30,168 nt of DNA from a virus. The stretch spans positions 1 through 30,168 of IMG/VR virus record IMGVR_UViG_3300038954_000520; one strand, 5' to 3'. Made by a program: the position numbers and the translations under genes. Shown piece after piece: positions 6,432 to 25,879 of this stretch. Under the pieces are notes generated by a model. It ran no database searches, was not told where the DNA came from, and saw nothing but the letters and a program-made list of their open reading frames with translations. How positions within the stretch are numbered: the first letter of the stretch is position 1; every line of letters starts with the position of its first letter.

Positions 6432-6449
6432 GGGGTCAGGGGAACGGTG

Positions 6450-6890: not shown

Positions 6891-6900
6891 GCGCAACTCG

Positions 6901-7494: not shown

Positions 7495-7504
7495 GAGTGA
7501 ACTG

Positions 7505-7840
7505 ATGGCGAAGGTTCGTGCGGGGGAGTTGTTTGAGCGGGTTCAGTTTTGGCGGGCGGTGCCGTTGAAGGATCAACAAGACCAGTATGAGAAATGGCTG
7601 AACCCGATCGCGGCCAAGGTCGACCAGCGCCAGGGGCGCGAAGAGTTGGTGGATTGGGCGATCGTTACGACCGATCAGGTGACTTTGTTTACGATCCGCT
7701 ACACCAACGCGGTTGACCGGAACATGCTGGTCGAGTGGCCGATCGATTCGGGGGATAAATACAAGATCGAATCGATCGATCAGATTGGCCGCCGGGAAGG
7801 CTTGGAGATTCGCGGGGAATTGATTACAGGGCGGTACTAA
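7505..7840 (+). CDS. Head closure / head-tail adaptor protein
   Basis: 111 residues. The start at 7505 follows AGGAGTG by the usual distance. The sequence has the layout of SPP1 gp16/RcGTA gp7-type adaptors: ELFERVQFWRAVPLKDQQDQYEKW, then a beta strand set with AKVDQRQGREE, TIRYTNAVDRNMLVEW and YKIESIDQIGRREGLEIRGE. These proteins form the ring that plugs DNA after packaging and receives the tail. The gene follows the connector by 10 nt. Confidence 0.87.
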   Translation: MAKVRAGELFERVQFWRAVPLKDQQDQYEKWLNPIAAKVDQRQGREELVDWAIVTTDQVTLFTIRYTNAVDRNMLVEWPIDSGDKYKIESIDQIGRREGLEIRGELITGRY

Positions 7841-7869
7841 AGACCTGGGAGAGCGCGGCGGGGTTTTGT

Positions 7870-8301
7870 ATGACTTTTAATGCGAGGGTGCGGGGGTTAA
7901 AGCAATTGCAGGCAACGCTTCGCACGTTGCCGCGAAAGATTGAGACCGGGGCGGTGCGGTCGAGCGTCCGGGCCGGGGCTGGTGAGATCCGGGATGAAGT
8001 CAAGCGGCATGCAGAATATAAATCAATAAAAAAGGCAATCGCCGTACAACCGCGCAAAAAACGCGGGGGGCGTTTCCGGGCAACGGTGGGGATCCGCACG
8101 ACAGGGCGCAACCGGGCTCCACACGCGCACTTGATTGAGTTTGGAACCAAAGAGCGGGTGCAGAAAACGACGGGGCGGCGAACGGGGCGGATGCCTGCGC
8201 GTCCCTATTTTGAACCTGCGGTAGAGGCTTCGCAGGAAAATGCGATTCAAGTGTTTTTGAAAAAAGTCCGCTCGTATATTTTGACTAAGTTGGGGCGTTG
8301 A
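7870..8301 (+). CDS. HK97 gp10 family neck/tail protein
   Basis: 143 residues, basic. It has the family pattern: RVRGLKQLQATLRTLPRKIE at the start, RSSVRAGAGEIRDEVKRHA, a beta strand with GIRTTGRNRAPHAHLIEFGT, then MPARPYFEPAVEASQENAI and a C-terminal helix. The HLIEFGT and RPYFEPA motifs are the best markers of HK97 gp10-like proteins, which take part in neck formation and tail attachment. The upstream ribosome site is weak. The next gene begins 1 nt after its stop. Confidence 0.88.
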   Translation: MTFNARVRGLKQLQATLRTLPRKIETGAVRSSVRAGAGEIRDEVKRHAEYKSIKKAIAVQPRKKRGGRFRATVGIRTTGRNRAPHAHLIEFGTKERVQKTTGRRTGRMPARPYFEPAVEASQENAIQVFLKKVRSYILTKLGR

Positions 8302-8302
8302 T

Positions 8303-8701
8303 ATGAGTTTGGAAATTGAATTGCGGGATCGGTTGTTGGCGGATGCGGCTATTGAAGCCAAGGTGAACGACCGGGCGTATGCGGTGTTTTTGCCGGAAGG
8401 GGTCACCAACGATTCGTTTACCTATGAACGGGTCCGGTTGAACGATCAGGAACGGGCATCGGATATGGAGGGCGAGGCCGGTCCGCAAAAAGTTTATGTG
8501 CAAATTGCCAGTTGGTCGAAGTCGTATACTGGAGCGCAGGAACTGGACGCGGCAGTGGCGGCTTCGCTGAGCGAGTTTTCGGGTTTGTTGGATACGATCA
8601 CTGTTCAAGGGATTTTTGACCAGGGCGCGGTTGATGATTTTGAGGACGCGACGGAGTTTTATCGGATTATGCGGCAGTTTGAAATTTGGTTTGTCGACTA
8701 A
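8303..8701 (+). CDS. Tail terminator / completion protein, DUF3168
   Basis: 132 residues. SLEIELRDRLLADAAIEAKVNDRAYAVFLPEGV at the N-terminus, then TYERVRLNDQE and a VYVQIASWSKSYTGAQEL strand-helix, are standard for DUF3168, the RcGTA gp8/lambda gpU-like proteins. These cap the end of the tail tube and join it to the head. The gene is coupled to the gp10-like gene (1-nt gap). The end FYRIMRQFEIWFVD is the last strand of the fold. Confidence 0.87.
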   Translation: MSLEIELRDRLLADAAIEAKVNDRAYAVFLPEGVTNDSFTYERVRLNDQERASDMEGEAGPQKVYVQIASWSKSYTGAQELDAAVAASLSEFSGLLDTITVQGIFDQGAVDDFEDATEFYRIMRQFEIWFVD

Positions 8702-8778
8702 CGTTTCTTGTCTAAACCAGGGAGGCGGGAATCTGGAAGGACAGGAAAACGGAAAAAACATAGAAGTGAGGTGGCGTT

Positions 8779-9228
8779 ATGAAGTGGATTGATGTTTTGC
8801 TGGCGGTTTTGGTGGTGTTTGCTGTGTTGATGGTTGCCGGTTTGCATGGGCAGTTGCAGGCGACCGAGTTGACGGCGCAGGATGCGGAAGGGCCTTACCC
8901 GTCGGTGTTGCCGGTTCCGACAAACGATTTGGATATTTCGTTTACTGCGTGGCCCAATACGGCGGTCGGTGATGTGACCTTTGAGATCACGGGCAGGGAA
9001 TTGCTGATTGTGAAAAACAGCAACACGGTTACCGGCGCCACGGTGACTTTTGAATCTCAACCGATATTGGGCCGGTCTGGATCGATTGAAAATTATTCGC
9101 TTGGAGCTGGGGATATTGCCGTATTTTGGTATGGCGATAAGCGGGGCTGGGCGAATTCTTCAAATATTGCCAGTGTGTCGGCGGGGACCACGGCGGTGGA
9201 ATTTGCCTTGGTGCAGGTGGATCTGTAA
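8779..9228 (+). CDS. Small signal-peptide protein with phage structural-like domain
   Basis: 149 residues with a GAGGTGG ribosome site. The first 29 residues form a signal peptide: MKWIDVLLAVLVVFAVLMVAG hydrophobic core and a likely cut after LQA. The mature part has ELLIVKNSNTVTGATVTFES and SLGAGDIAVFWYGDKRGW, a pattern (N-x-s, VTVTxxS, laaGxiavf) that I associate with short beta-rich phage structural proteins next to tail tube genes. It sits between the tail terminator and the tail tube. As with the two earlier secreted genes, export of a virion-module protein is unusual. Role unknown; decoration is a guess. Confidence 0.6.
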   Translation: MKWIDVLLAVLVVFAVLMVAGLHGQLQATELTAQDAEGPYPSVLPVPTNDLDISFTAWPNTAVGDVTFEITGRELLIVKNSNTVTGATVTFESQPILGRSGSIENYSLGAGDIAVFWYGDKRGWANSSNIASVSAGTTAVEFALVQVDL

Positions 9229-9295
9229 CGACGGACAAAAGTTGTGATTAAGCCGCGTTTGGCGCGGATAACGGCGATAAGGAAGGTGGAAAACG

Positions 9296-9730
9296 ATGTC
9301 GAATGAAGCTTCGATTGGAAAAGGCACGCTTTTTAAGCGGGAGGATGCGGTCGGCGGGGGCGCGTTTACCACGATCGCCCGGTTGAACAATGTTACCCAT
9401 CCACGGGCGGCGAATGAATTCGATGGTACGTCGATGGAATCGACCACGGTTGAGCCGGTCAAAGATATGGTTGACAACCAGACGTTGAACCTCGAGTTGC
9501 ACTTTGTACCCGGTGAAACCAGCCAGAAATCGTTGGAAGACGATTTTAATGACGAAGATCACACCACCGGTCGCAAGTATCGATTGGTGTACAACGATAC
9601 GGCGAATACGTACCGGGAGTTTACCGGTTATGTGGCTTCGTTTGAAACCGGGCACCCGGTGCGGGGCTTGCAAACGGCGACGGTGGGGATCCGGGTTGTG
9701 GGCGATATTACTGAGGGCACTGGCGGATAA
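9296..9730 (+). CDS. Major tail tube protein
   Basis: 144 residues, with GGAAGGTGG before the ATG. The pattern GKGTLFKREDAVGGGAFTTIARLNNVTHPRAANEFDGTSMES, then a WxxY-like loop region and FTGYVASFETGHPVRGLQTATVGIRVVGDI, is characteristic of phage tail tube proteins of the TP901-1/RcGTA gp9 type. Stacked hexamers of it form the tube. The last strand SFETGHPV...ATVGIRV closes the beta-sandwich. It is followed by the tail chaperone pair, as expected. Confidence 0.9.
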   Translation: MSNEASIGKGTLFKREDAVGGGAFTTIARLNNVTHPRAANEFDGTSMESTTVEPVKDMVDNQTLNLELHFVPGETSQKSLEDDFNDEDHTTGRKYRLVYNDTANTYREFTGYVASFETGHPVRGLQTATVGIRVVGDITEGTGG

Positions 9731-10476: not shown

Positions 10477-13098
10477 ATGGCGGCGAACCGGGTTGGGCAG
10501 CTGATAGTTGATTTTGTTGCGGAAACTAGAGAGTTTCGGCGAGAAGTGGCGTCGATGAACCGCAATTTCAGCCGCCATATGGGCCGCATGACGCGGGATA
10601 CGCGGGGATTGCGGCGCGGGTTGGATTCGTTGGTGATTGGAGCCGGGGCGGTTGTGACCGGCTTTTTGTCGTTTCGGGCGGCGGAAGCGGCGCTGGGCTC
10701 GCTGATTGAGACGGCGCGGGAAAGCGACCGGATCGCGAACAGCTTGTTGGTAGCTGCGGGCTCGGCGGAAGAAGCCGAGCGCGAAATGGCGTTCGTGGAG
10801 GATACCGCCGATACGCTGGGGCTATCGTTGCGGTCGACCGCCAGGGACTACGCCAGTTTGACGGCCGCGGCCAAAGGTACGGTGTTGGAAGGGGAGGCCA
10901 CTAAAGAGATCTATGAGGCGGTCAATGTCGCAATGACGGCGCTGGGGCGGTCTAGCAATGACACCAGCGGGGCTTTGCGGGCGGTCGAGCAGGTGATCTC
11001 TAAAGGGACGGTGCAAGCGGAAGAATTGCGCGGCCAGTTGGGCGAGCGTTTGCCGGGTGCATTCCAGTTGGCGGCGCGGTCGATCGGGATGACGACGCAA
11101 GAGTTGGGCAAGATGTTGGAGCGCGGTGCAGTGACCGCGGAAATGTTGTTGCCGGCATTGGCGGCGGAATTAAAGCGGACGTTTTCGCCCGCGGCGATTG
11201 AGGCTGCTGATAAGCTGAATGCGAATATTAACCGGCTGGAAACCAGCTCGTTTAATTTGAAGCGCCAGATTGGGGAAGGCGGGTTGTCGGATGGAGTGAA
11301 CCGGGCAACACAAGAGATGAGCGGTTTTCTCGATCGGATTACCGAGAGCAATGCGCCGGAGTTGATTGGAGAGGCGCTGGGTGGCGCCATTGAGCATTTG
11401 ACTGATGCGGGAATTGATTTGTCTGAGACCTATGGGCCCAGTTTGGCGCGGGGGATTGAAGACGTTGCGGCTGCGGTAAAGGAATTTACCGCCGAGAAAA
11501 ACAACCTGGAAGGGATTGCGATCACGCTTGGCGCGATTAGCGATTCGCTTTTGTTTATTGGACGCCAGGCAGGCAATGTGGGTAGTTTCTTGGGTGAGTT
11601 GAACCAAGAGCCCGGCAATAATTTTGCTGAGAAATTAGCGTTTCGCCACACTAAACAAGCCGCTGGATTTTTGGGTGGATTGTTCCAAGTGGATACCGGC
11701 TTGATCGCCAATGAACGGACGCAGTTGGACCGCGATTTGAATGAGCTGATTGGGCCGATGTTGCCGGGCTTTCGGGAAAATATTGAAGTGCCAGGCAGCC
11801 GGTTGCAAAAGCAGGCGCAAGGGATATCCGATTGGGTCAAGGAATACAAGCAGGGGATTGAGGATCTGAAAAACACCACCCAAGAAGCGCGTCGCGACCC
11901 GGATGTGCAGGCAGTGTTTGACCCGTCTTTGTTGTCGATGGATGCGTTTCGCGGGCGGACAATGAGCGAGTTGAATTCGGTGTCGTTGCACAATGTTTTC
12001 GAGCCGCGGCCTGGATTGGCCGACCGGTTTCGCAATACCGGCGGGGATGGCGAGTCGGGCCAGTCGGCCTTGGAAAAGCAATTGGCCGAGCAGGCGGAGC
12101 GGGCGCGGGAAGCGTTCGGCCGCCAGATGCGCGAATTGGAGTTGGATTATTGGGAGATGCAAAACCAGCTCTCGATCGCCAGCCTGGAAGGTACCGAAAA
12201 GCGAATTGCGCAACAGCAATTTGAAACCGCTAAGTCGATTACCGAGTTTGTCGACCGGGCGGCGGCGTTTGAGCAAACGGAAGGCGCCACCACCGAGCAG
12301 ATCCAAGCGTTTTGGGATCAAACCTACGACAATATCAACCAATTGGTGGCGATCAACGAACAGGAGATTACGGCGATCGCCCGCGAAGAATCGGAGCGGC
12401 GCAAAGAGATTGCGCGCCAGGAACGCGAAGCGCGGGAGATGGAGTTGCGCAGTTTCACCGATTCGCTGGAACGGGCGACCATGACCCGGCGCGATGTTTT
12501 GGAACAGGAGCAGCGCCAGTTGCGCGACGCCTTTGACGCGGGGGTGATCGACCGCGACCAGTTTGCCCGGCTGGATACGTTTTTGCAGGATGAATTCGAC
12601 GGCATGGTTGAAGCCAGCCGCCGGACCGCGACCGAGATGCGAAATGCGTTTTCGGATATTTTCTTTGCGGGCTTGCAGGGCGAGATGGCGGACCTGGGCA
12701 ATATTAAGCGGGCTTTCGATCGGGTGTTGAGCGACCGCCTGGCTACGGGCTTATTTAACAGCCTGGAAGGCACGTTCGGCGATTCGCTGCCGTTTTTGTT
12801 CGGCGGGGGCCGGGCGGATGGCGGCGGTGTGACCGCGGGTGTGACCTATATGGTGGGCGAGCGCGGGCCGGAGCTGTTTCGATCAAGCCAGAGCGGCACG
12901 ATTGTGCCGAATCATCAATTGCCGGGGATCGCCAAGGCCGCAGGCGCGGTGATGGGCAACGCGGGCGGCGGCAATGTGTTTCAGTTTGGAGACATTATTT
13001 TGCCGGAAAGTGCAGCCGGTCCGGAAGGATCGATTAATTATTCTCCAAGCCAGTTTATGGATGAGTTGGCGCGGCAAGTGCAAGCGCGGCCGGTGTAA
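10477..13098 (+). CDS. Tail tape measure protein
   Basis: 873 residues, the second-longest gene here. The N-terminal region (about 75-250) matches the tape-measure N-terminal domain: SDRIANSLLVAAGSAEEAER, RDYASLTAAAKGT, EQVISKGTVQAEELRGQLGE and RGAVTAEMLLPALAAEL. The middle (about 525-720) is strongly alpha-helical and charged, with long stretches of Glu, Arg and Gln, as expected for a coiled rod. Near the C-terminus (about 777-800) is GGRADGGGVTAGVTYMVGER followed by GPELF, a common tape measure end motif. Tape length sets the tail; by the rule of about 0.15 nm per residue it predicts roughly 130 nm. No peptidase domain is visible. Confidence 0.95.
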   Translation: MAANRVGQLIVDFVAETREFRREVASMNRNFSRHMGRMTRDTRGLRRGLDSLVIGAGAVVTGFLSFRAAEAALGSLIETARESDRIANSLLVAAGSAEEAEREMAFVEDTADTLGLSLRSTARDYASLTAAAKGTVLEGEATKEIYEAVNVAMTALGRSSNDTSGALRAVEQVISKGTVQAEELRGQLGERLPGAFQLAARSIGMTTQELGKMLERGAVTAEMLLPALAAELKRTFSPAAIEAADKLNANINRLETSSFNLKRQIGEGGLSDGVNRATQEMSGFLDRITESNAPELIGEALGGAIEHLTDAGIDLSETYGPSLARGIEDVAAAVKEFTAEKNNLEGIAITLGAISDSLLFIGRQAGNVGSFLGELNQEPGNNFAEKLAFRHTKQAAGFLGGLFQVDTGLIANERTQLDRDLNELIGPMLPGFRENIEVPGSRLQKQAQGISDWVKEYKQGIEDLKNTTQEARRDPDVQAVFDPSLLSMDAFRGRTMSELNSVSLHNVFEPRPGLADRFRNTGGDGESGQSALEKQLAEQAERAREAFGRQMRELELDYWEMQNQLSIASLEGTEKRIAQQQFETAKSITEFVDRAAAFEQTEGATTEQIQAFWDQTYDNINQLVAINEQEITAIAREESERRKEIARQEREAREMELRSFTDSLERATMTRRDVLEQEQRQLRDAFDAGVIDRDQFARLDTFLQDEFDGMVEASRRTATEMRNAFSDIFFAGLQGEMADLGNIKRAFDRVLSDRLATGLFNSLEGTFGDSLPFLFGGGRADGGGVTAGVTYMVGERGPELFRSSQSGTIVPNHQLPGIAKAAGAVMGNAGGGNVFQFGDIILPESAAGPEGSINYSPSQFMDELARQVQARPV

Positions 13099-13109: not shown

Positions 13110-13754
13110 ATGAGCAATATTATCCACTATGCGTTTTTGCCTCGAAACATTGCTATCAATGCGGTGGGCGGTCCTTCTTTGTTGACCGATGTGGCGGAAA
13201 CGGATGTGGATGAGCAACGCAACCGGCGGCGGGAGACCGCGCCGGGGCTTTGGAGCATTAACTACAAATATTTGACACATGAACAAATACGAGATTTGGA
13301 AGCTTTTTTGTTATGCCGCTACGGTCAGTGGGCCGGGTTCTTTTTTTGGGATCATCTCGATCACGAATTTGATTACGTGACGGTGACCGGTTCGTATGAC
13401 GGGGCGACCGAATCGTTTAATTTGATTAAGCCGTATAAAGATGGCTACGGTTTTTCGTTTAACCGGCGTATTTGTTTTCCAGACAATGTTATGAAATTGT
13501 ACGTGGACAACGCCAAATGGCCGGATGACCGGTGGAGTTGGAACGAGAGCACTAAACAGATTGATTTGGGAACGCCCAAGCCGGGAACTGGAACGCTGAT
13601 TCGAGCAAAGGGTGAATACCATAACGCGGTACGGTTTGGGGTGGATCGGATCCCTCGGACGTTGCACAGCCGCCGGATCGCGAGTATGAATACGATTCCC
13701 ATTCGGGAATTGTATTTGAACGAGCAGGTGGCGGCGACGGTGCAGAGGGGTTAG
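13110..13754 (+). CDS. Distal tail protein, DUF2460 (RcGTA gp12-like)
   Basis: 214 residues. Features of DUF2460 are visible: LPRNIAINAVGGPSLLTDVA near the start, RRRETAPGLWSINYKYLT, the FLLCRYGQWAGFFFWDHLDH block (about 67-86), YDGATESFNLIKPYKDG, and RFGVDRIPRTLHSRRIAS near the end. In RcGTA the equivalent protein forms the distal tail ring that joins tube and hub. The order tape measure, DUF2460, DUF2163, gp15-like is the standard GTA tail tip order. A purine-rich AGGGAAG lies upstream. Confidence 0.85.
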   Translation: MSNIIHYAFLPRNIAINAVGGPSLLTDVAETDVDEQRNRRRETAPGLWSINYKYLTHEQIRDLEAFLLCRYGQWAGFFFWDHLDHEFDYVTVTGSYDGATESFNLIKPYKDGYGFSFNRRICFPDNVMKLYVDNAKWPDDRWSWNESTKQIDLGTPKPGTGTLIRAKGEYHNAVRFGVDRIPRTLHSRRIASMNTIPIRELYLNEQVAATVQRG

Positions 13755-13776: not shown

Positions 13777-14670
13777 ATGGTACAGTCGGTTTCTTCGGGG
13801 TATTCGGATTATATGGAGACGTTTTTGCATTCGGATGCGGATTTGCTGAAGATTACGCGGTTTGATTCGAATGTGTACCGTTTCGCCAATCATGATGTGG
13901 ATGTGGTTTGGAATTCGGAAACCTATTCAAGCGCCAATGGGTTCCGGCTTACGAATATACGTAAATCGTCCAGTCTAAAACCGGATACGGTGACGCTGGG
14001 CGGGTGGTTTTCGGCCAGCGGGGTGATCAAGCAGGATCTGATAGCGGCGCGATTTGACGGGGCCAAGATCGAATTGTTTGATGCGCGTTGGGATGAGGAA
14101 GGCGGGGCGAGTGACCGGATTATCGGGATTGTCGGATTTGTGGGGAATGTTCGCTATACCGATTTTGAATGGGAATTTGAGGTTGAGGGGCTTGAGAAGA
14201 TTTTTAACGAAAATTTGATGCGCCAATATGAACCGGCTTGCAACGCAGATTTGTTCGACGACCGGTGCGGCGTGAATTCGGCCAATTATGTTGAGACCCT
14301 TACAGTGGACGCCGTAACGGACAATGGCGATTTTACCGCGACCATCAGCGACAGCTACGGGCATCCTGTAGGGGATGGTTGGTTTGCCGATGGAGAGGCT
14401 ACCTGGACCGGGGGAAACAACAATGGCGACAAGAGTGAAATTGATAGCTATACGCATGCAACGGGGCGGATCGTGCTCAAGCAGTTTGCGTATTTTGATA
14501 TACAAGTGGGCGACACCGCGACCCTCTTGCCGGGCTGCAACAAGAGCGGCGCGGTGAGCGATGGGCATTGCAATATTAAATATGACAACCTGGACCGGGG
14601 CCGGATGTTTAACCGGATGCCGCAGAGAAACACGGTCCGTGTGCAAAAAGGGAACTTTGGGGAAGGATGA
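13777..14670 (+). CDS. Tail hub protein, DUF2163 / gpL-like (RcGTA gp13-like)
   Basis: 297 residues. The first half follows the DUF2163 pattern (YMETFLHSDADLLKITRFD, SSLKPDTVTLGGWFS, then DLIAARFDGAKIELFDARW). The second half is the C-terminal domain with four conserved cysteines: YEPAC155, DDRC164GV, LLPGC254NKS, GHC265NIKYDN, then the NRMPQRN end. In lambda gpL the related cysteine set binds an iron-sulfur cluster; the same is likely here. The protein links the distal ring to the tail tip. Its stop is followed after 4 nt by a strong GGGAGGA site for the decayed gene next door. Confidence 0.87.
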   Translation: MVQSVSSGYSDYMETFLHSDADLLKITRFDSNVYRFANHDVDVVWNSETYSSANGFRLTNIRKSSSLKPDTVTLGGWFSASGVIKQDLIAARFDGAKIELFDARWDEEGGASDRIIGIVGFVGNVRYTDFEWEFEVEGLEKIFNENLMRQYEPACNADLFDDRCGVNSANYVETLTVDAVTDNGDFTATISDSYGHPVGDGWFADGEATWTGGNNNGDKSEIDSYTHATGRIVLKQFAYFDIQVGDTATLLPGCNKSGAVSDGHCNIKYDNLDRGRMFNRMPQRNTVRVQKGNFGEG

Positions 14671-14686
14671 CGCGGGAGGAAAAAAA

Positions 14687-14874
14687 ATGAAAATTTACAA
14701 TGGATGCAGACTTATACTAATCAAAAATTTTATCCAGAGTGTCCAGAAATCAATGAATTGAGTATATATGACATTGCATACAGCTTATCCAATATATGTC
14801 GATTCAATGGACATTGTAAAAAATTTTATTCACCAGAAATAGCAAAGCATAAATTTTTGGATAACTTTTTTTAA
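14687..14874 (+). pseudogene. Remnant of HD phosphohydrolase (YfbR-like) gene, frameshifted and truncated
   Basis: A strong GGGAGGA site precedes ATG 14687, which opens MKIYNG and then runs into a stop at 14760. One frame over, from about 14701, the DNA encodes WMQTYTNQKFYPECPEINEL, IYDIAYSLSNICRFNGHCKK, then FYS. This closely matches the N-terminus of phage HD-superfamily phosphohydrolases (W-x-Q-T-x-T-G-x-x-F-x-P...D-I-A-H-x-L-S...C-R-x-x-G-H). One missing base at about 14701 would restore MKIYNW-MQTYT. After FYS the similarity is lost and the frame stops at 14872-14874, so the HD catalytic part is gone. The sequence is very AT-rich compared with both neighbours. It lies where GTA-like operons carry an NlpC/P60 peptidase gene. 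Confidence 0.7.
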
Positions 14875-14891
14875 TTATAGGATTATAAATC

Positions 14892-17800
14892 GTGACGGTG
14901 ATTGGGCAGATTGGGCTTTTGAATCGGGCGGGCGCTGTTGGCGGGGCCGGGGTATCGGCCGGGCTTTCGCCGATCGGTGTGCTGTCGGCGGCGTATTTTG
15001 GCGCCAGTTTGCTGTATAACATTTTTAATCCAAAAAAAATTGAAGGGCCTCGCTTGGAAGATTTGACCTTGCCCGACACCGGCTTTGACCAGGTGCAGGC
15101 GTGGACGGTGGGGACGGTGCCGCAAAACGGATACATTATCTGGCCCAGTGACGCGGATACGCTGATCACGGAGAACAAGCACACCCGCAAAGAAGGCGGG
15201 TTTTTCGGGTTGGGGGCGACTGAGATTACTTTTTACACCTATAAGGCCACGTTTTCGGTGGCGTTTGGGGAGGGCACGGCGGATATTCTTAAATTGTGGG
15301 CGTCGGACGGCAAGGTGATTTACGATGTGACTGATGACGCCGATGACGCCATGTTGCAGAAATCGCGGCAGATGCTGGCCGATGGCCGATTGTATTTGTT
15401 TGATGGATCTGAGAGCCAGGGCGAAGACCCGGTGATGGCAGCTGAGCATGGAAGTGGTAATAATCCCCATTATATGGGTGTGGTGCGGGCCACGTTCAGC
15501 GGATTGTTTCTTGGTAGTTTTGGAAATCAGCTCCCGGGTATGAAGGCGCTGGTGAGCGAGCGCAATATTGAACGCACTTCGCAACTGAAGGCGGTATCGG
15601 GTTTGGGGGATGCGTTCAAGAAGAATCGCGTTTCCGCCGGGTTTGTGAAATGGAATGATCAGTGGTTGCTAATGGGGGGATATAACACGGCGGCCAGCGC
15701 CGATGTGACCATGATTTTTGCCAGCGATAACGGGCGTGAATGGAATTTGCAATCCAATACCAATTGGGCTTTCCCCTCGCAGACGCAACGCTCTCATTTT
15801 GTGCCGCTGGTCTACCAGGGTGCCTTGCGGGTATTTGGCGGCAAGCAGGCGGGGGCGAGTTACGACGGCGATGCCGCGGGCAATGGCATTGCCATGATTC
15901 ATGACGGACAAATTTGGCGGGTTGAGCAGTTGATAGCGAATGTGTTCCCACGTCACGATTATGCGGCTGCCGTTTTCACCCATCCGACTTTGGGTGAGAT
16001 TATGCTTTTGGTTGGCGGACGGGTTGAGGGATCGGTGAGCAAGCCGCCGGGGAATTCGGCGAATGATTTCTATCGAAACATTTGTTATTCGAACGTAACC
16101 AGTTTATCGAACGGCCAGCATTGGCAGGAATTGGCGGCGGACGCCGGGGCGGAGTATCGCACCGGGGCGACTTTGCTGACGCACACGCCCAGCGGGGGCG
16201 GAAGTGATGAACTTCTTTTGATCGGCGGCCAGCACCGGGAGATTGGCGGCGGGACGGATTACAGCAACGCGGTGTATGTTGCCGATTTTAGTGCCTCGCC
16301 GATTTTTAGCCGGCGGAGCGATGAGTTGACCGGGTTGGGTGTGGGGGCGTGGGAGATCCACGGCGCAGTGAGTAAGGATAGTGTTTTGACGGTGTTGGCC
16401 AAGCGGGCCAGCGATAGCAAGTATTATTTGTGGAAGTCGAGCGACGACGGCATGACCTGGACGGTGTGGAACAATGGATCGTTTGCAGTGGATTCGTTTA
16501 GCGATGACGGGGTTGATACCACCGCGGTGGTGAGCGGGGATCAAAGCGCGATCGCGACCAACCAGGCGCATGTGGTGGGGTCGCCAAGTGATGATGATAT
16601 TTACGACATTAGCAGCGCCACTTATTCGAGCAGCACGGACACCACCAGCATTGTGCTGCCGGGGGTTTTGGATTTGACCGGGGCGACGATCTATCACAAC
16701 CCAATTACACCGTTGGATGCGGCGGATTTTGATTTGGATAACCGGCCAGTGTTTGCGGAGATCTTCGGCCAATTTATGGTGATCGGCGGGGCGGGCTCAA
16801 CCGACGGCCAGACCGGCGTGTATATCACACGGAAAACAGTCAAACATTTGCCGGTGAACATCAACAATAATTTGATAGAGCGCATTCGTACACGAGTAAA
16901 CGAAAACAAAGATTCGTTTTATCAGCTGAGCGCCAGCGACCTGGTGACGGATGATTTGGCGGATGAAACCATTGCGGGGATGCGGATCGATGAGCAAATT
17001 ACGGGCCGCGGCATCTTAGAGCCTTTGCGGCAATACAAACAGTTTGATGCGTTCCGCTCGGATGGGAAGATCAAGTTTAAGACGCGGGGCGGATCGAGCG
17101 CGGCCACCATTAACGCCGAGCAGTTGGGGTCGCGGCGGTTGAACGGCCAGGCGGTGGACCGGGTGGAGAGTGATATCCTGCCGCTGAACGAAATGCCCAA
17201 ACGGGTGGTGGTGCATTATATCGATGAAGAATTTGATTGGGGGATCACCAATCAGCATAGTCAAATCATCAACAGCAAAAGCCAGGACACGAAAGAAATT
17301 CGGGTGCCGATCGTGGTGACGAAAAACGAGGCCGCGGTGATGGCGGCGGTAGCGGCGCAGGAAATGCGGCAATCGGCGCGGGCGAATTCGTTTCCCGTGC
17401 CCAAGACTTACGCCAAGTATGAGCCGGCGGACCTGGTGACGATCGAAGAATATGACGGGCACGGGAATGTGGAGGTGTCAACCTTGGCGCGCCTGGTGAC
17501 GGTGGACCGGAACGGGATGATGGGCCGTTGGGATACCGTGGTGGAGCGGGTGGATTTGTATAGCCCGACGGTGCAGCCGGTGGATCCACCGAGCAACCCG
17601 GCTCCGGTGGTGGCTACGCCAAGCGCCTATGTGAGTTTCATCGATGGGCCGATCACTGACCGCGAAGACGATGATTTTGGCTTTTACGTCGTAGCAGGCG
17701 CGAATAAAGACGATTGGGAAGGCGTTGAGATATTTCAAGACAACGACGGCAATTTCGGGGATGATACGCGGATTTTGCGGATCAACAAAAACGGGATATT

Positions 17801-18650
17801 GGGCAATGCTGTGACGGCGTTGGGGGAAGATGTTACCACATATGATTTTGATTACAACCGCACGGTGGACGTGGAAGTGGTGGTGGGATCGCTGGAAAGC
17901 AAAACCGAGCGGGAAGTGTTGGACGGGGCGAATGAGGCGATCTTGGGGGATGAGATTATACGTTTTGTGACCGCGACTTCTTTGGGCGGCGGCCAGTATC
18001 GCTTATCGGGATTGTTGCGCGGTCGGCGCGGCACCGGGTGGGCCACCGGCGATCATGAAGTGAGCGAGCGTTTCGCCCTGCTGAGCACCGCGGTGCGGGT
18101 GCGGGCCAAGGACAGCGCGAACATTGGGGCGGCGCTCCGTTACCAAGTGCGTACCGTGGGTGAGCCTGCCGGGATTGAGTTTGGGTTTACTAACACGGGG
18201 ATCGGCAAGAAGCCCTATGCGCCGGGATCGATCAAGATGTTTCGATTCGGCGAGCCCAAAACCATCGGAAACCGTTTGTATGCAACGGGCAGTTGGTGGA
18301 TCGAGTGGGAGCGGCGTATTCGCGGGTTGAACAGTTGGGCGGGCGGTTTCCCGCTGCCTAGGGGCGAAGAAGAGTTGGTGTACAAGTTGGAGTTTTTGGA
18401 TAGTAGTGAAACGGTGCAGCATACGCAGATTGTGATCGACAACCGGGGGGTGTCGGTGACCGGGCGGCCGTTTTTTGTTTACCCGGTTGATACGTTTGAC
18501 TATGTGGACGAATTTGGCGATACGCAAAAGCAGCACGGGCAGACGGATGCGGATGCGTTTGGGTCTATCCAGGATCGTTTGCATGTGAAGATTTATCAAT
18601 TGGGGGCGCTGGGCTGGGGTTATGCGGCGGAGAAGGTTGTGACGGCTTAG
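14892..18650 (+). CDS. Tail tip protein (gpJ / RcGTA gp15-like) with inserted Kelch/Asp-box beta-propeller
   Basis: 1252 residues from a GTG start; AGGA lies about 10 nt upstream. The N-terminal part (about 45-225) is the usual tip domain: EGPRLEDLTLPDTGFDQVQ, GTVPQNGYIIW, TFYTYKATFSVAFGEG, then the LWASDGKVIYDV strand and NQLPGMKALV. From about 245 to 640 comes a repeat region with Kelch-type LLMGGY, RVFGGK, MLLVGGR, LLLIGGQ and MVIGGAG strands. Between them are Asp-box-like SDNGREW, HDGQIW, SNGQHW and SSDDGMTW, the latter close to SxDxGxTW. The hub/phage-tail_3 part then resumes (IAGMRIDEQITGRGILEPLR, KIKFKTRGG), and the C-terminus carries the GTA gp15 hallmark GDEIIRF followed by YRLSGLLRGRRGTGWATGDH. 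A TIM barrel, seen at the comparable place in GTA gp15, is absent. It should contact the host receptor. Confidence 0.88.
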   Translation: MTVIGQIGLLNRAGAVGGAGVSAGLSPIGVLSAAYFGASLLYNIFNPKKIEGPRLEDLTLPDTGFDQVQAWTVGTVPQNGYIIWPSDADTLITENKHTRKEGGFFGLGATEITFYTYKATFSVAFGEGTADILKLWASDGKVIYDVTDDADDAMLQKSRQMLADGRLYLFDGSESQGEDPVMAAEHGSGNNPHYMGVVRATFSGLFLGSFGNQLPGMKALVSERNIERTSQLKAVSGLGDAFKKNRVSAGFVKWNDQWLLMGGYNTAASADVTMIFASDNGREWNLQSNTNWAFPSQTQRSHFVPLVYQGALRVFGGKQAGASYDGDAAGNGIAMIHDGQIWRVEQLIANVFPRHDYAAAVFTHPTLGEIMLLVGGRVEGSVSKPPGNSANDFYRNICYSNVTSLSNGQHWQELAADAGAEYRTGATLLTHTPSGGGSDELLLIGGQHREIGGGTDYSNAVYVADFSASPIFSRRSDELTGLGVGAWEIHGAVSKDSVLTVLAKRASDSKYYLWKSSDDGMTWTVWNNGSFAVDSFSDDGVDTTAVVSGDQSAIATNQAHVVGSPSDDDIYDISSATYSSSTDTTSIVLPGVLDLTGATIYHNPITPLDAADFDLDNRPVFAEIFGQFMVIGGAGSTDGQTGVYITRKTVKHLPVNINNNLIERIRTRVNENKDSFYQLSASDLVTDDLADETIAGMRIDEQITGRGILEPLRQYKQFDAFRSDGKIKFKTRGGSSAATINAEQLGSRRLNGQAVDRVESDILPLNEMPKRVVVHYIDEEFDWGITNQHSQIINSKSQDTKEIRVPIVVTKNEAAVMAAVAAQEMRQSARANSFPVPKTYAKYEPADLVTIEEYDGHGNVEVSTLARLVTVDRNGMMGRWDTVVERVDLYSPTVQPVDPPSNPAPVVATPSAYVSFIDGPITDREDDDFGFYVVAGANKDDWEGVEIFQDNDGNFGDDTRILRINKNGILGNAVTALGEDVTTYDFDYNRTVDVEVVVGSLESKTEREVLDGANEAILGDEIIRFVTATSLGGGQYRLSGLLRGRRGTGWATGDHEVSERFALLSTAVRVRAKDSANIGAALRYQVRTVGEPAGIEFGFTNTGIGKKPYAPGSIKMFRFGEPKTIGNRLYATGSWWIEWERRIRGLNSWAGGFPLPRGEEELVYKLEFLDSSETVQHTQIVIDNRGVSVTGRPFFVYPVDTFDYVDEFGDTQKQHGQTDADAFGSIQDRLHVKIYQLGALGWGYAAEKVVTA

Positions 18651-18664
18651 CGGAGTGTTTGTTA

Positions 18665-18680
18665 GTGGGCTTAAGCCCAC
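18665..18680. repeat. Palindrome GTGGGCTTAAGCCCAC followed by CCTAC
   Basis: A perfect 16-bp inverted repeat immediately after the tail tip gene and before the ribosome site of the next. The same design (GATGGGCTA ... TAGCCCATCCTAC) appears at 30065-30108, so this is probably one copy of a dispersed palindromic repeat family. No T-run follows, so termination is unlikely. Confidence 0.55.
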
Positions 18681-18697
18681 CCTACATGGAGGAAAAA

Positions 18698-19603
18698 ATG
18701 GAACGGATCACAAATGTTTCGGTGTTAATAATTATATTGTGTGTAGTGTTATTTTCACTAGGGTGTTTGACGCAGACGGTTTGGGCGGATGAAACGGACC
18801 GGCTGGGGTTGGAGAAGTTTGAGGAGGGCGGTGGAAGCCCGTGGGTGACCGGGAACCGGGCGTTAAATAAGTTGGATGCTTTAGTTTTGCCGGTGGTGGA
18901 TGTTTACCCGGCGGATGCTTCGCCGGTGGTGAATTCGGCCACTGATGGGAGTGTGTTTATTGTGCCAGATGGGGGTGAGGGGGATTGGAGTGGGAAAGAC
19001 GATCAGATTGCAATTGTGACGGATTCAGTTTTGGGTTTTTACGATTTTATTGAACCGGCGACAGGTTGGGCGTTTTACGTGCAGAGCGGAACGGCGGAAG
19101 GGTCGGTGTTGTTTTATGACGGCCAGGATTGGGGGCCGAAACAACGGACCTGGACGCGGGGATTGTTGCTATCTGAATCAAGAAGCGGATTCAGCCAATT
19201 TGCGGCGCAAGACCGGATTGTGCAGGAAGCGACGCCCAGTACGGCGTTTACGGTGATGCATTTGGTGCGCAACTTGGAATCGGGAGATAACTATTACGTT
19301 TTTACGGTGAATGATTCCGGCCCAAGTTTGGAACTTTACAACGGGGATGGCGCAAACGTGGATGTGCGGCTGACGACCAGGGGAGACAGCTTTATAAAGG
19401 GCACTGAAGTTTCATTTGGAGATAACCATTCAGCGGATGAGGTTCTGGATGTATCGGGCGTAATTAATTTGCGAGAGCGGTATACCAGTCCATTAGATCC
19501 CGACGAAGGCGCTGGGAAGATTTGGTTGGATACAGCTGGCAATTTTCGCTTTTTATCGAACCCATCAGGAACTGTTAAAGAAGCGACAGTTGAACCCAAT
19601 TAA
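18698..19603 (+). CDS. DUF2793-type phage tail protein with N-terminal signal peptide
   Basis: 301 residues from ATG 18698, which has GGAGG 6 nt upstream; an earlier in-frame start at 18659 is less likely. Residues 1-30 are a signal peptide: MERITNVSVLIIILCVVLFS, a short polar stretch and TVWA|DE. The next about 120 residues follow DUF2793: TDRLGLEKFEEGG, ALNKLDALVLPVV, GDWSGKDDQIAIV, YDFIEPATGWAFYVQ and VLFYDGQDWG. DUF2793 is a common C-terminal tail-gene domain in GTA-like phages and is normally without a signal peptide. The C-terminal half ends with GKIWLDTAGNFRFLSNPSG, typical of tail fibre-associated proteins. A fibre or fibre-base role is likely; export is unusual. Confidence 0.75.
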   Translation: MERITNVSVLIIILCVVLFSLGCLTQTVWADETDRLGLEKFEEGGGSPWVTGNRALNKLDALVLPVVDVYPADASPVVNSATDGSVFIVPDGGEGDWSGKDDQIAIVTDSVLGFYDFIEPATGWAFYVQSGTAEGSVLFYDGQDWGPKQRTWTRGLLLSESRSGFSQFAAQDRIVQEATPSTAFTVMHLVRNLESGDNYYVFTVNDSGPSLELYNGDGANVDVRLTTRGDSFIKGTEVSFGDNHSADEVLDVSGVINLRERYTSPLDPDEGAGKIWLDTAGNFRFLSNPSGTVKEATVEPN

Positions 19604-20534: not shown

Positions 20535-20857
20535 TTATTCAACGATTGATAATGATTTTTTTGATTTTGTTGGTTGGCTTGGGGATATATCAGGCCGGGG
20601 ATTGGAGCAGGAGCGCCGAGGCACAGCCGGCGGAGCCGCCGGGGCAGGCGAAGAAAATTGAGAAGCGCGAGCCTCGAACGTTTGTTACAAATCGAGCCTA
20701 CAAGCCGCAGGAATGGCCGGAACTTACCGGCCAGCAAAAAGCGCAGATTGCTCGAGATCGGAAAAATCGTGTGCAACAACTGAAAGCGCAAGGTCGCAAG
20801 GTTGCGAAGGGTGGAGGAGTGAAGCCCAGGGGCAAGGGAAAAGGGAGAAATAAATAA
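20528..20857 (+). CDS. Small exported protein with strongly basic tail
   Basis: 109 residues. The N-terminus is hydrophobic (MVVIQRLIMIFLILLVGLGIY) and is followed by SAEA|QP, so cleavage or membrane anchoring are both possible. The rest is unusual: highly basic, with KKIEKREPR, then LTGQQKAQIARDRKNRVQQL, and a Gly/Lys-rich end (KGGGVKPRGKGKGRNK). Such a tail could bind nucleic acid, acidic polymer or membrane. The start overlaps the upstream gene by 7 nt and the stop overlaps the next ATG by 1 nt. No family recognised. Confidence 0.6.
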   Translation: MVVIQRLIMIFLILLVGLGIYQAGDWSRSAEAQPAEPPGQAKKIEKREPRTFVTNRAYKPQEWPELTGQQKAQIARDRKNRVQQLKAQGRKVAKGGGVKPRGKGKGRNK

Positions 20858-23379
20858 TGAATCAAGATAAATTTGCTGCTCGTTTTTGGTGTACGCTTTT
20901 TTGGATATTGTCTTTTCTGTTTTTGCTGAATATGGTTTTGCAAGTCTTCGCACCAACCGCAAGCGCTCAACAAACAGTCACGTTTTCGGCCGCTGACCGT
21001 GACACTGACTTTGTGCAAATCGATAGCAACCATTGGCAAGCAGCAAGCCCAAATTATACCTATACAGTGAATCGATCACTGGAAGCCTCGCTTGAGATTG
21101 CAGGTGCCTCGTTTTCGCTTGAGCCTACAATTACGTATACAGATGACGGTCTTATTTATTACGAGGCCGGAATTAAGAACGTGACTGCACCCATTATCGG
21201 CGGTCTGCACCCAAAACCGGAAAGCGCAATCCTCTGGCACAACTCTTACGATTTTGGCCGTTTTCAGATGAGGACCTTTCCAGGAAAGATTATTCAGGAA
21301 TTTCATTTTAAGGGTCAAGCAGGTGATGTAATACCCGCTACAGCGACACATATTAGTAAACTTGAAGCATTTCTCACCGATTGGGATGGTGATATTTATG
21401 CAGATGGAGTGTTGATTGAAGCAACTGCTTCTATTCGGGCTGCAACGATGCGATTCATTAAAGAAAATTTCAGTTTTACTTTTGATGCCGTGTCTGCGAA
21501 ACGAGTCTCAGTAGAAGATGGAGTGAAAGGATGGTATAAGTGGGATGGATCAGCCGGAACATTAATTTCTGAAGTCACAAATTTTGCTGATATTGTAAGT
21601 ATTGACCCCACGATCACAATCCAGGATACCAGTAATACGGGGGATACTTATTTTAACAGTGGTGCAACCACCACTAACTATGGAACAGACACTCTATTGA
21701 GAGTCGGGGAGGATAATAACCCGTTTGATTACCGAGGGGCGGTTGGTTTTAATATCGACTTGAGTGGGTCGGTTTCCTCAATAGAACAAGCTACCTTGAC
21801 TATGGTTATCGACTCAGTCCAAGGGGCCGGGCAATCTGCGGTTGATTTGTATGCCCTAGAGGAAACCACCAACATCGAGACAACTGGAACTTGGGCCAAC
21901 CAACCCTCAATTCGAGAAACAATTGCTACAGGTGTTTCAAGCGCAAACTCAGCAGGGGCTACCGATGAATTTGATATTCTTTCCAGTAGTTTAATTACTT
22001 CTATTAATAGTTCTAATTGGCATTGGATTCGTATAGACGGAAACAATCTTCCGAATGATGGAACAGATCGGCGGATCTGGTATTATTCGGAAGTAAACAC
22101 GACCGCCGAGGAATATGATTTTTTGGTAGAGATTACTTACACTGAAAGGGGGCCAGAAAAAGTTAGCGCACGGCGTACGGATTCTAATTTATTTGTGTAC
22201 AGCAGTTCTACTTTTTCTGGAACACCGACTGTGTTTATAAAAAGTTCCACTGATTCTCTTTTTGAATTAACGCCGACTTTAATTGATACGACATTAACAA
22301 ACGTTATTGAATATATGCTTCCAATTTATCCTGGAATCTCGGATAACGAGACAATTTTATGGGCGAGTGACGCTATATCAGCGACTGCATATATGATGGA
22401 ATTATCCAATCGCGGGAGTGCTTCGGTGGACACTGACTCTATTGCGAATGCGGTGTGGCAGGAGATTCAGGCGGATCATAGTAGTATATCGGGCAGCGCT
22501 GCGGATTATTTAGCGAATCTTGTGGCGCGAAGCACCGAAGTTGCAAACGCCAGCGAATCCATCGGCGCGGATACAGATTGGCTGATTGCGGGGATTGCTA
22601 CGGATGTGACGCCGTATGTTCAGCATGCTGGCAGTCTGGCTCCAGCTAACGGGATCAATCTTATCGATAATTTTACCGACGTTCGTTTTTCGGACGGCAG
22701 CACTGTAGAATCTATTGATATTATGGGGTTTTCGCAGAGCGGGGCGGCAGTGAATTGGAATGCCGGGCTTTACGAATTAGAGCCGGGCGGGACGTACACC
22801 TCAATCATTCCGCTGGACGCCTCGTTTACATATTCACAAGTTGCGTTGGAAGGGACCTGGTTGCACCGTTGGTCAGCCGAAGAGCCTTCGATCACGCTTG
22901 CAAAAACGCAAGCGATTATCCTCAACGCCAGCGGGGCGGACGGTATTACCGAGAATGCGATTGCGGGGCCGCAGACGCTGCCTACGCAAACTATTACGAT
23001 TTCGGATCAACTGACGCAAACTAAATTCCTGCAAACGATCGAGAGCGCTACTAGCGCGATTGAAGATGACCTGTTTGATCTTTCGTATGGGATCGTCAAG
23101 CAGGTCACTGCCGTTGTGGCTAAAACCACGGTTGCCCGCACGACGGCCACTGTTTCTTCCACTTCATCAATTCGTTTAGTACAGAACAAATTGGTAGGGA
23201 TCGATGTTACGCGGACACAGATTGACGGGAGCGATCAAACCAAGTCGATGCTTTTCGACTACTCTGACGCGACCGATACGCGGTTTAACGAATTGGAGTT
23301 GACCGGCCAGACGGTGACCGCTTGGGCGTTGGCCAACTTATCGGCTTCGCAATACGATTACCCTGGAAAGGATTTTTAG
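20857..23379 (+). CDS. Large secreted fibre-like protein with DNRLRE-type domain
   Basis: 840 residues. A signal peptide is visible (about 1-38: basic start, FWILSFLFLLNMVLQVF, then ASA|QQ). The part from about 40 to 250 is an unassigned beta-rich domain (TVTFSAADRDTDFVQID; YDFGRFQMRTFPGKIIQEFHF). Residues about 253-430 follow the DNRLRE (CBM96-like) pattern: ITIQDTSNTGDTYFNSGATT, NYGTDTLLRVGED, GFNIDL, EQATLTMVI and VDLYALEE. Residues about 526-558 carry SIANAVWQEIQADHSSISGS, a sequence typical of phage tail fibre proteins. The first 525 codons are AT-rich; the rest matches its GC-rich neighbours, so the gene looks mosaic. Adhesin or fibre role is inferred. Confidence 0.7.
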   Translation: MNQDKFAARFWCTLFWILSFLFLLNMVLQVFAPTASAQQTVTFSAADRDTDFVQIDSNHWQAASPNYTYTVNRSLEASLEIAGASFSLEPTITYTDDGLIYYEAGIKNVTAPIIGGLHPKPESAILWHNSYDFGRFQMRTFPGKIIQEFHFKGQAGDVIPATATHISKLEAFLTDWDGDIYADGVLIEATASIRAATMRFIKENFSFTFDAVSAKRVSVEDGVKGWYKWDGSAGTLISEVTNFADIVSIDPTITIQDTSNTGDTYFNSGATTTNYGTDTLLRVGEDNNPFDYRGAVGFNIDLSGSVSSIEQATLTMVIDSVQGAGQSAVDLYALEETTNIETTGTWANQPSIRETIATGVSSANSAGATDEFDILSSSLITSINSSNWHWIRIDGNNLPNDGTDRRIWYYSEVNTTAEEYDFLVEITYTERGPEKVSARRTDSNLFVYSSSTFSGTPTVFIKSSTDSLFELTPTLIDTTLTNVIEYMLPIYPGISDNETILWASDAISATAYMMELSNRGSASVDTDSIANAVWQEIQADHSSISGSAADYLANLVARSTEVANASESIGADTDWLIAGIATDVTPYVQHAGSLAPANGINLIDNFTDVRFSDGSTVESIDIMGFSQSGAAVNWNAGLYELEPGGTYTSIIPLDASFTYSQVALEGTWLHRWSAEEPSITLAKTQAIILNASGADGITENAIAGPQTLPTQTITISDQLTQTKFLQTIESATSAIEDDLFDLSYGIVKQVTAVVAKTTVARTTATVSSTSSIRLVQNKLVGIDVTRTQIDGSDQTKSMLFDYSDATDTRFNELELTGQTVTAWALANLSASQYDYPGKDF

Positions 23380-23381
23380 AT

Positions 23382-23819
23382 ATGAAAAATATTGTATACA
23401 CGTCAATTATTCTTGTGATGGGATTTCTGCTCGCGCAAGCCAGCGAACCGCTTGGAGACCTGGCGCGGCTGGCGCAACAGAATGGAGTTCTGTTTTCCGA
23501 TGGCCGGACGACACTCAGCGGAACGCTAAGCAACGCTGATGGAATGCTCGCTATTGATGGCGCCAACGCTACCGTGAAAGCCGACGGGCTCATTCTCAAT
23601 CTCATGACCAGCGACACCGAGGACGATTTGAAGGCTCTTATGGAGAACGGCGAAATCCGCCGGTGGAACGGGGGCGCCGAGGAAACCGCTTATTTGCTTC
23701 GCAATGGCCGGTTGATTCCGGCGAAACTTACCGCGTTTGATCCGGCGACGCATACCGGCAATTGGACGTTGATTAAGTTGGGCGGGGAACTATACGTGTT
23801 TGACCGAAAGCAGGCTTAA
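23382..23819 (+). CDS. Signal-peptide protein, 145 residues
   Basis: The start at 23382 is chosen because GGAAAGGA lies 9 nt upstream and the N-terminus is then a signal peptide (MKNIVYTSIILVMGFLLAQA|S). The mature protein begins EPLGDLARLAQQNGVLFSDG and has a repeated short-strand pattern, GTLSNADGMLAIDGANATVK, then ADGLILNLM. The C-terminal part includes EIRRWNGGAEETAYLLRNG and a TLIKLGGELYVFDRK end. The DNA is GC-rich. The stop overlaps the next gene's ATG (TAATG). No family recognised; context suggests an adhesin-cluster component. Confidence 0.6.
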   Translation: MKNIVYTSIILVMGFLLAQASEPLGDLARLAQQNGVLFSDGRTTLSGTLSNADGMLAIDGANATVKADGLILNLMTSDTEDDLKALMENGEIRRWNGGAEETAYLLRNGRLIPAKLTAFDPATHTGNWTLIKLGGELYVFDRKQA

Positions 23820-25879
23820 TGCGATTTACAATTTTTTTTTATATAATTTTGATCTTAACAAATGTGTCCGGAGCCGCTTCGTTTGACGATGGCGGCCCGG
23901 TTACGTTGTATGATGACGCGCAAGAGAATTACTTTGGGGATGCACCGGGGGATGGGATTTACCAAGCGGGCAGCGGGTCGATTGAGATTCTAACCTACGG
24001 CTATACGCCGCAAGCGCCTTCCTGGTCGCGCCCTGCGACCACTTCATTTACTGATATCGACAGTAACGATCCATTTCGAATTCTCGCAACTTACCCAATC
24101 AGTTGGACGGATATTGACAACATTTTTGATTTTGACGGCGACGGCGACAAAGACGCGGTGCAGTCGGTGCAGGTCCGCTGTTATGTAGCCTGGTCTTTTT
24201 CCGGCGGGTGGCAACTGGCCGGAACGTTTGAAAGTTTCGCAGTGAACTATTCGGATATGTTGCAATTGTGGATTGTGACACCGCAGAATAGCGGAATTGC
24301 TGACAGTTCGTTTCGCATCCGCTGGAACGTTTATGTTTCGCCGCTTGATTTTGCTACCGATCCAGGCACCTATTCGAATAATGAGTATTCACCGGTATGG
24401 ACCTGGTCAACTCCGGCAACGCCAACACCGACCTTCACGCCCTCGAACACTCCAACACCGGTGCCGACGGCGGAACCGACACCGACACCGACTTTCACGC
24501 CGACCGCAACACCGACCGCAACCAACACGCCGACACCGCGCCCGGCAATGCCCAATCCGAATTTAGGCTATCCGGACAATGGGGCGCTGAGCAATGGCAC
24601 GTTTCGTTTTACGGTCTTGGAAAATGGTGGCGGGCCAAACGACCCCTACTTACATTCGGCATTCAAAGAATTTCGTGTATGGCTGGCCGTTTATAACGGA
24701 ACGTGGCCACAGCCTGGTGATTTTCAGTTTCGATCGTCGAACACCGGTACAGCGGGCAATCCCACGATTCACAAAATTACTGGATTGTCGCCGGGTGATA
24801 TTTTTCAAATCCGGGTTCAAATTATACCGACTTCGGAAAGTGGCTATACACTTTCGGATCGAGTGGATTCGGCGATTTTTGTGGTGCCGCAACCGCCGAC
24901 GGCGACGCCAACCGCCACAGCAACGCACACACCTACCTTTACGCCGACGCCGACTGAGCCGCCCGACCCGACGGCAACCAACACGCCGAGTCACACACCG
25001 ACGCCGACCGATACGGCCACGGCCACCGCGACACCGACACCGACGGACACGGCCACACACACGCCGACCTTCACTCCAACGGATACGCCACCGCCGGATG
25101 CGACCGCGACACCGACACCGACGGCCACCTTCACGCCGAGCCACACTCCGACACCATCGAACACGCCGACGGCCACCAACACGTTCACTCCGACTAGCAC
25201 TTTCACCTTTACGCCGACCTTTACCAACACGCCGTTGTCGAGCAATCCAACGGCCACCTTTACGCCAACATTCACACCGAGTAACACGTTTACGGCCACG
25301 CCGACTTTTACGCCGAGCCATACGCCGACGGCGACCCATACCCACACGCCACAGCCGACCGATCAGCCGACCCATACGCCGACCTGGACGCCATCAGCAA
25401 CCAAGGCGCCAACCGCGACACCGACGCCGCAGTATGTGCAGGAGCCCCTCGAATTCCTGGCGGCCAGCGCGGTTGTGGGGATCCCGACCGAGACTTCGAT
25501 TCAATGGGGATTGCCTGACCAGGTTCTATTCAACAACGAGGCGGACCGGGCAGACATTCGCGCCGTGACAGGGGTGGCGGATAATGTGGACGCGGCTAGC
25601 GCGTTTATCGTTGGACAGTTTGCCGAGCCGCAGGAAATCGCGAGCAGCACGATCTTGCAGCCGGGCAACACATACACGATTTGGGGATCAACGTTTAACT
25701 TGCCGCGCAGTGCTCGCAGCGCCTGGCTGCGGATTGAGTACACAATGGCGGAGTTGTCGCCGACGCCGACACCTACGCCGGTGGATACACCGACACCGAC
25801 GCCTACGCCGATTCCGCCCGGCTGGGGCGTGTTCGAAAAGAGCGGCGGAGTTTTATATGAATGGTTGAAATCGATTTAG
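23819..25879 (+). CDS. Secreted Thr/Pro-repeat (stalk-like) protein
   Basis: 686 residues. A signal peptide at about 1-20 ([20 protein letters not shown]) is followed by an N-terminal domain containing a Ca-binding-like [10 protein letters not shown] (about 103-112). Two low-complexity blocks of TPTPTFTPS-type repeats (about 197-243 and 359-540) flank a middle domain (about 244-358), which may be fibronectin III-like ([24 protein letters not shown]). The C-terminal domain (about 541-645) includes NPRSARS-like and [11 protein letters not shown] parts. A last short repeat ends in [20 protein letters not shown]. Such Thr/Pro linkers are long, extended and often O-glycosylated. A stalk carrying two binding domains is the simplest reading. 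Confidence 0.65.
24895..25437 (+). repeat. Thr/Pro-coding low-complexity repeat
   Basis: About 540 bp of imperfect repeats of ACGCC, ACACC and ACTCC units coding for TPT/TFTPS/TPTAT motifs within the large secreted protein. A second, shorter block lies at 24410-24545. The DNA is Cys- and Gly-free in translation, and its opposite strand has long spurious open frames rich in Val and Gly. Length variation between strains is likely by slipped replication. Confidence 0.8.

Follow-up and report, generated by a model that had tools for sequence, protein, structure and literature searches.

Opening of the tail channel, in GTAs as well as in many Pseudomonadota phages, is attributed to tail-tip proteins called megatrons. 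In RcGTA, the megatron (Rcc01698, gp15) is made of an iris/penetration region (residues 1-46) followed by adhesin-like (47-229), peripheral (230-744), central (745-984) and fibre-binding (985-1304) domains, of which the peripheral one is TIM-like and also props up the fibre-binding domain (PMC7296036). Three megatrons are present per baseplate both in RcGTA (PMC7296036) and in the roseophage R4C (PMC10276861). For the peripheral region of the R4C megatron, carbohydrate binding was proposed by its authors (PMC10276861).

Beta-propellers have been described in other phage structural proteins. In Staphylococcus phage phi11, the RBP Gp45 displays a propeller of five blades, for which a GlcNAc site was proposed (PMC4901313), and giant phages, CBB among them, have Kelch domains in structural proteins (PMC5259590). 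The Kelch propellers with solved structures (KLHL12, KEAP1, KLHL20; PF01344) are six-bladed, GG strand-containing protein-interaction domains of eukaryotes. In the open-access papers searched, no description of a propeller in the megatron slot was found.

The window megatron and its peripheral slot

The stretch of DNA analysed here (the window) is a virus record of IMG/VR with a length of 30,168 bases, the genes of which include portal, protease, capsid, tape measure, Dit, hub and integrase. In the megatron ORF, Pfam detected the domains PF13550 (Phage-tail_3) and PF23666 (Rcc01698_C), both far above cut-off, and the product matched PHROG 4271 tail protein at 5.4e-99 (Table 1). Based on its C-terminal Pfam domains, the product is assigned to the megatron/gp15-like proteins. 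The tape measure, Dit and hub genes were identified by Pfam directly upstream, which corresponds to the gene neighbourhood of RcGTA. The RcGTA protein also shares with that of the window the hydrophobic N-terminus, the adhesin-like domain, a large slot domain, the PF13550 central domain and the PF23666 C-terminal domain (PMC7296036). Window residues 9-222, which cover the adhesin-like domain, matched the relative L002 at 6e-21 as well as many other relatives. When the window protein was aligned to its relatives, the flanks matched the RcGTA layout and residues ~222-658 corresponded to the peripheral slot.

The content of the slot is different. While RcGTA harbours a TIM-like domain at this position (PMC7296036), the slot of the window is occupied by a predicted Kelch propeller of ~437 aa, and the Pfam search revealed no GTA_TIM (PF13547) peripheral domain in the window megatron. 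The R4C megatron is comparable in that it likewise comes from a phage and its peripheral region is variable; unlike that of the window, however, it has kept a mannanase-like peripheral domain with a CBM11-like domain added inside, and no propeller was reported (PMC10276861). Giant-phage Kelch proteins differ in that they are encoded by separate myovirus genes with no megatron insertion (PMC5259590).

An earlier, sequence-only reading of this DNA had located a propeller at 15630-16830, inserted between a tip domain and a hub domain. The location was right, although the domain is larger (15555-16865) and includes a nested insertion at residues 525-618. The hub is a separate gene, and the sequence after the insert belongs to the central and fibre-binding part of the megatron itself. 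The same reading had pointed to a TIM barrel in a similar place of GTA gp15, in agreement with the RcGTA structure (PMC7296036).

Kelch repeats and fold of the slot domain

The five GG strands on which the sequence-only reading was based are all present in frame (LLMGGY, residues 259-264; RVFGGK, 313-318; MLLVGGR, 371-377; LLLIGGQ, 441-447; MVIGGAG, 629-635), together with the near-perfect SxDxGxTW motif (SSDDGMTW, 516-523), the single such Asp-box of the window domain. The [DN]G..W motif was detected at four distinct sites (residues ~279, 338, 407 and 518), and the statement that each GG strand lies near a DG-x-x-W motif consequently applies to four of the six expected blades and not to the rest. 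Five hydrophobic-hydrophobic-GG motifs were observed in residues 222-658, where 0.30 were expected from 5000 shuffles, and six [DN]G..W matches, at the four sites, where 0.18 were expected. Neither count was equalled in any of the 5000 shuffles, and both motifs are absent from the flanks. In an alignment to the relative L152 (see below), six repeats could be marked, with GG in repeats 1-4 and 6 and W-type motifs in repeats 1, 2, 3 and 5. The nested insertion gave no Pfam match. A lone SxDGGxTW motif is not diagnostic, as it also occurs towards the C-terminal end of the megatron in many relatives.

Table 1. Coordinates of the megatron gene, its predicted parts and the genes upstream (nucleotide positions in the window; residues refer to the megatron)
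Feature	Position	Strand	Evidence
Tape measure protein	10477..13098	+	PF20155, 2.2e-30
Distal tail (Dit) protein, DUF2460	13110..13754	+	PF09343, 1.2e-25
Hub protein (phiJL001 Gp84_N plus BR0599)	13777..14670	+	PF09931, 1.6e-33; PF09356, 2.9e-11
Megatron/gp15-like tail-tip protein, 1252 aa, GTG start	14892..18650	+	Pfam, PHROG
Residues 1-50, Gly/Ala-rich hydrophobic N-terminus, expected iris/penetration region	14892..15041	+	Inferred from position and composition as RcGTA residues 1-46 (PMC7296036)
Residues 51-221, adhesin-like domain (GPRLEDL ... FGNQLPG)	15042..15554	+	Aligned to relatives, 31-35% identity
Residues 222-658, predicted Kelch-type beta-propeller in the peripheral-domain slot	15555..16865	+	Motif statistics, weak Kelch match, homology to L152
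Kelch repeat 1, LLMGGY ... DNGREW	15666..15743	+	Sequence; aligns to L152 AIGGW ... DGSAW
Kelch repeat 2, RVFGGK ... HDGQIW	15828..15917	+	Sequence; aligns to L152 VIGGA ... GGW
Kelch repeat 3, FPRHDY ... MLLVGGR ... SNGQHW	15945..16124	+	Sequence; aligns to L152 FPREGY ... NGTTW
Kelch repeat 4, GAEYRTG ... LLLIGGQ ... PIFSRR, no Trp	16146..16316	+	Sequence; aligns to L152 GAGYR ... LFGGT
Repeat 5 without GG, SVLTVLAK ... SSDDGMTW (near-perfect Asp-box)	16380..16460	+	Sequence; aligns to L152 SDNRYFLWESSDGVTW
Residues 525-618, nested beta-rich insertion preceding the last blade	16464..16745	+	Common to L152 (both aligned in one profile)
Last GG strand MVIGGAG, probable closing blade 6	16776..16796	+	Sequence; aligns to L152 YVVGGG
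Residues 659-858, start of central domain (PF13550 at 700-858)	16866..17465	+	Pfam, 1e-19
Residues 859-1252, remaining central and fibre-binding part (PF23666 at 970-1061)	17466..18650	+	Pfam, 3.9e-20; names from PMC7296036

Searches with the window insert alone were of limited yield. Pfam returned Kelch (PF24681) with an E-value of 0.0012, the 18.7 bits being far under the curated cut-off of 50, and the single-sequence AlphaFold model of residues 213-700 was uninterpretable (pLDDT 33). Both results speak for another beta-rich repeat fold, in which the Kelch-like motifs would be accidental. Insert-only homologue searches gave no match in viral contigs, genome contigs or annotated phages, and neither did a sequence search of the PDB; marginal matches only were obtained in 398 Pseudomonadota genomes.

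A scan using the N-terminal alignment retrieved the relative L152 (IMG/VR 3300033149_003672, 1254 aa). It is 29% identical to the window megatron over 1301 columns, that is, over the whole length including the slot. The two slots taken alone aligned with a local score of 247, while shuffles reached 46±7 (maximum 72), and tblastn with the window slot alone retrieved L152 at 1e-17. The L152 slot matched Kelch_1 (PF01344) at 2e-13 with 50.0 bits (curated cut-off 20.1), the best stretch lying in the region aligned to window repeat 4, and in a PDB sequence search it matched the Kelch domains of KLHL20 at 1e-9. A two-row profile of the window and L152 also retrieved Kelch chains from the PDB. An AlphaFold model of the L152 slot, built from only two sequences with the window as second row, had a mean pLDDT of 44.8 (blades ~50-79) and a pTM of 0.50. 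The nearest solved structures to this model were Kelch domains (Foldseek 8.9e-10, prob 1.00), which are six-bladed and superposed over 230-290 residues with VIA Z scores of 17.4-18.5 and rmsd values of 3.0-4.2. As the window domain is homologous to L152, the slot of which is Kelch according to Pfam, PDB sequence matches and model fold, it is identified by homology as a Kelch-type propeller. Given this homology to a domain above the curated cut-off, the motif statistics and the Kelch-like model, we consider another repeat fold with accidental motifs to be very improbable. The window domain resembles the solved Kelch propellers in its six expected blades and its GG strands, through the sequence and model of L152, but differs from these eukaryotic domains in its nested insertion, its Asp-box-type W motifs and its placement inside a phage tail-tip protein.

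Trypanosomal sialidases were also near the L152 model (Z 17.4-17.8). Together with the one near-perfect Asp-box and with the presence in the same slot of a GH113-like TIM barrel in GTAs and of a probable hydrolase in phage R7M, this would be compatible with an enzyme (sialidase-like, epimerase-like or a glycan lyase) that trims the host surface polysaccharide. Kelch domains, however, scored equally well or better against the model with the same blades covered, no enzyme family matched the window or the L152 domain, and the slots of the relatives are too variable for a common active site. Asp-boxes are structural rather than catalytic. An enzymatic propeller is therefore regarded as unlikely; catalysis by the window domain is not supported, and neither is the glycan-processing role that had been suggested for it. 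Between the two folds put forward by the sequence-only reading, Kelch or sialidase-type, a propeller is supported through L152 and Kelch is the better supported, because only one Asp-box is near-perfect. In the profile searches, Kelch was weak in the window and strong in L152, and no sialidase profile matched the window domain.

Slot occupants of related megatrons and their exchange

From one scan, the best 80 of 540 confirmed relatives were kept for the survey, which is biased towards the N-terminus of the window protein. PF23666 was present in 93 out of 398 Pseudomonadota genomes. The loci fully fetched from such genomes are mostly GTA-like with a slot of ~505-583 aa, and those inspected read as the GTA TIM domain. 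Among 74 surveyed viral slots, Pfam detected GTA_TIM in six, LVIVD, Kelch and DUF6242 in two each, and WD40-like, PQQ_2, Beta_propel and two-component-regulator propeller models in one each. A cluster of five slots displayed repeated SxDGxxW boxes, and its profile gave weak matches in the PDB with a DUF6242 protein as the best one; profiles of three slot clusters gave nothing useful against the PDB. In Alteromonas phage R7M (L007, 404-4990), the slot contains an insert of many hundred residues which reads like a helical glycoside hydrolase and is probably a hydrolase. Empty slots of 27-32 aa were also found, which shows that the family can dispense with the domain. With TIM barrels, propellers, a probable hydrolase and empty slots in the survey, the earlier proposal that the slot accepts different domains is supported, and Kelch repeats are not universal among gp15-type proteins, as GTAs have TIM barrels and some phages an empty slot. 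Other propeller families are frequent in the slot, so that a propeller there is less exceptional among phages than had been implied.

The 76 distinct non-TIM slots fell into 42 groups by single-sequence linkage, a procedure in which the link between the window and L152 was lost under default filters, while the flanks remained recognisably homologous. Direct evidence of a propeller fold was obtained in a minority only of these groups. L152 was the one homologue of the window Kelch type found: in slot-to-slot searches across relatives, no other slot matched the window significantly, two further scans for slots of the Kelch type yielded the L152 contig again or nothing, and a search for relatives with the hub gene found none. 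In a Foldseek comparison with predicted viral proteins, Kelch-like propellers turned up widely in phage proteins with other names or none.

Slot contents were then compared with their flanks. In L011 and L012, which originate from different metagenomes, the flanks share 90% and 94% identity, compared with 22% for the slots; at the DNA level, identity is 85-89% on either side of the slot with no match inside. Misassembly is an unlikely cause, as the frames are open, the breaks lie at domain edges and other pairs are alike. The same contrast was seen in L012/L028, L189/L216 and L014/L027, at 68-75% flank identity. For pairs with a mean flank identity of 60-80%, the median slot identity was 28-40% without TIM versus 75-77% with TIM, and GTA slots change no faster than their own flanks. 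In L144/L148/L150, dN/dS was 0.48-0.58 in the slot versus 0.02-0.06 in the flanks at similar dS, and in L157/L161 it was 0.35 versus 0.05-0.10; these fast pairs gave no Pfam evidence of a propeller. No such rise was observed in TIM-type pairs, nor in one prophage pair (L117/L120). The slot behaves as a cassette, the occupant of which is replaced or rapidly remodelled while the flanking machinery is kept.

The peripheral domain of RcGTA contacts and positions the fibre-binding domain (PMC7296036), and because of this support a structural role of the slot domain is possible by analogy. The propeller could then be a spacer positioning the fibre-binding domain, and its own sequence would drift, as any rigid disc suffices. 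The megatrons having an empty slot argue against such a spacer, and whole replacement between near-identical flanks fits a host-facing surface better than a scaffold. The tenfold rise in dN/dS at similar dS also fits a host-facing surface better, although relaxed constraint could explain part of it. We give the spacer a small chance.

Taken together, it is probable that the window megatron carries a six-bladed Kelch propeller in its peripheral slot, which serves as an exchangeable, non-catalytic adhesin. Residues ~222-658 would fold as the propeller, with the nested beta-rich insertion before the last blade, and would be plugged into the slot that holds the TIM-like domain in RcGTA. The tail tip would be surrounded by three protruding copies, by analogy with the three megatrons of RcGTA and R4C. 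These would bind a glycan or protein on the host surface and hold or orient the tip while the channel is opened by the conserved parts of the megatron. Phages would swap or rapidly remodel the occupant and keep the flanking machinery, which would affect host range. The phi11 Gp45 protein may serve as a precedent for receptor binding, being a siphophage tail-tip propeller with three copies per trimer and proposed surface-sugar binding; it is unrelated to the window domain, however: its propeller has five blades, the RBP is encoded by its own gene and has a coiled-coil stem, and the host is Gram-positive (PMC4901313). For the slot domain in general, an exchangeable receptor- or glycan-binding adhesin is the most likely function, and the far faster change of slot contents than of the rest of the protein suggests a part in the choice of the bacterial surface target.

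A broader proposal appears to us evenly balanced: the slot of phage megatrons would generally serve as an exchangeable socket for adhesins, mostly beta-propellers of families unrelated to one another, cassette exchange and fast remodelling there would be a main way for GTA-like siphophages to alter host recognition, and GTAs, with no arms race, would have frozen the TIM barrel. Were the slot to serve as an adhesin socket, sequences could directly reveal the host-recognition modules of a large and mostly uncultured phage group, and phage and GTA slots would form a natural experiment on the effect of an arms race at the tail tip.

Neighbouring genes and further megatron loci

The gap between the hub and megatron genes (14671-14891) is AT-rich, with 27.6% GC versus ~55% within the megatron gene. 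It contains an ORF of 56 aa (14704-14874, +) which by eye resembles the start of an HD-domain hydrolase and gave no match in a Pfam search. At this position, where GTAs have an NlpC/P60 gene, no peptidase gene was seen in the window. Downstream of the megatron, the regions 18659-19603 and 20857-23379 (both +) matched DUF2793 (2.3e-15) and CBM96 (7.1e-13), respectively, which makes it likely that they encode more carbohydrate-binding tail parts; one surveyed viral megatron slot likewise matched DUF2793. A protein with long TPTPTP-type repeats (23819-25879, +) is probably a stalk or linker.

In the Manatee Spring phage (L010, MW202657.1), the megatron slot is nearly empty, and a separate gene annotated as kelch (4969-6222, -) is located beside the tail-tip genes, with a weak Kelch_1 match (0.036). 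The megatron gene is in two open frames in L018, L035, L037, L107 and L135, for which sequencing error and decay are both possible. Finally, the viral contig L013 harbours two overlapping megatron-like ORFs in tandem (2502-6422 and 6299-9697), each of them matching the window protein in both its N-terminal and its C-terminal part.
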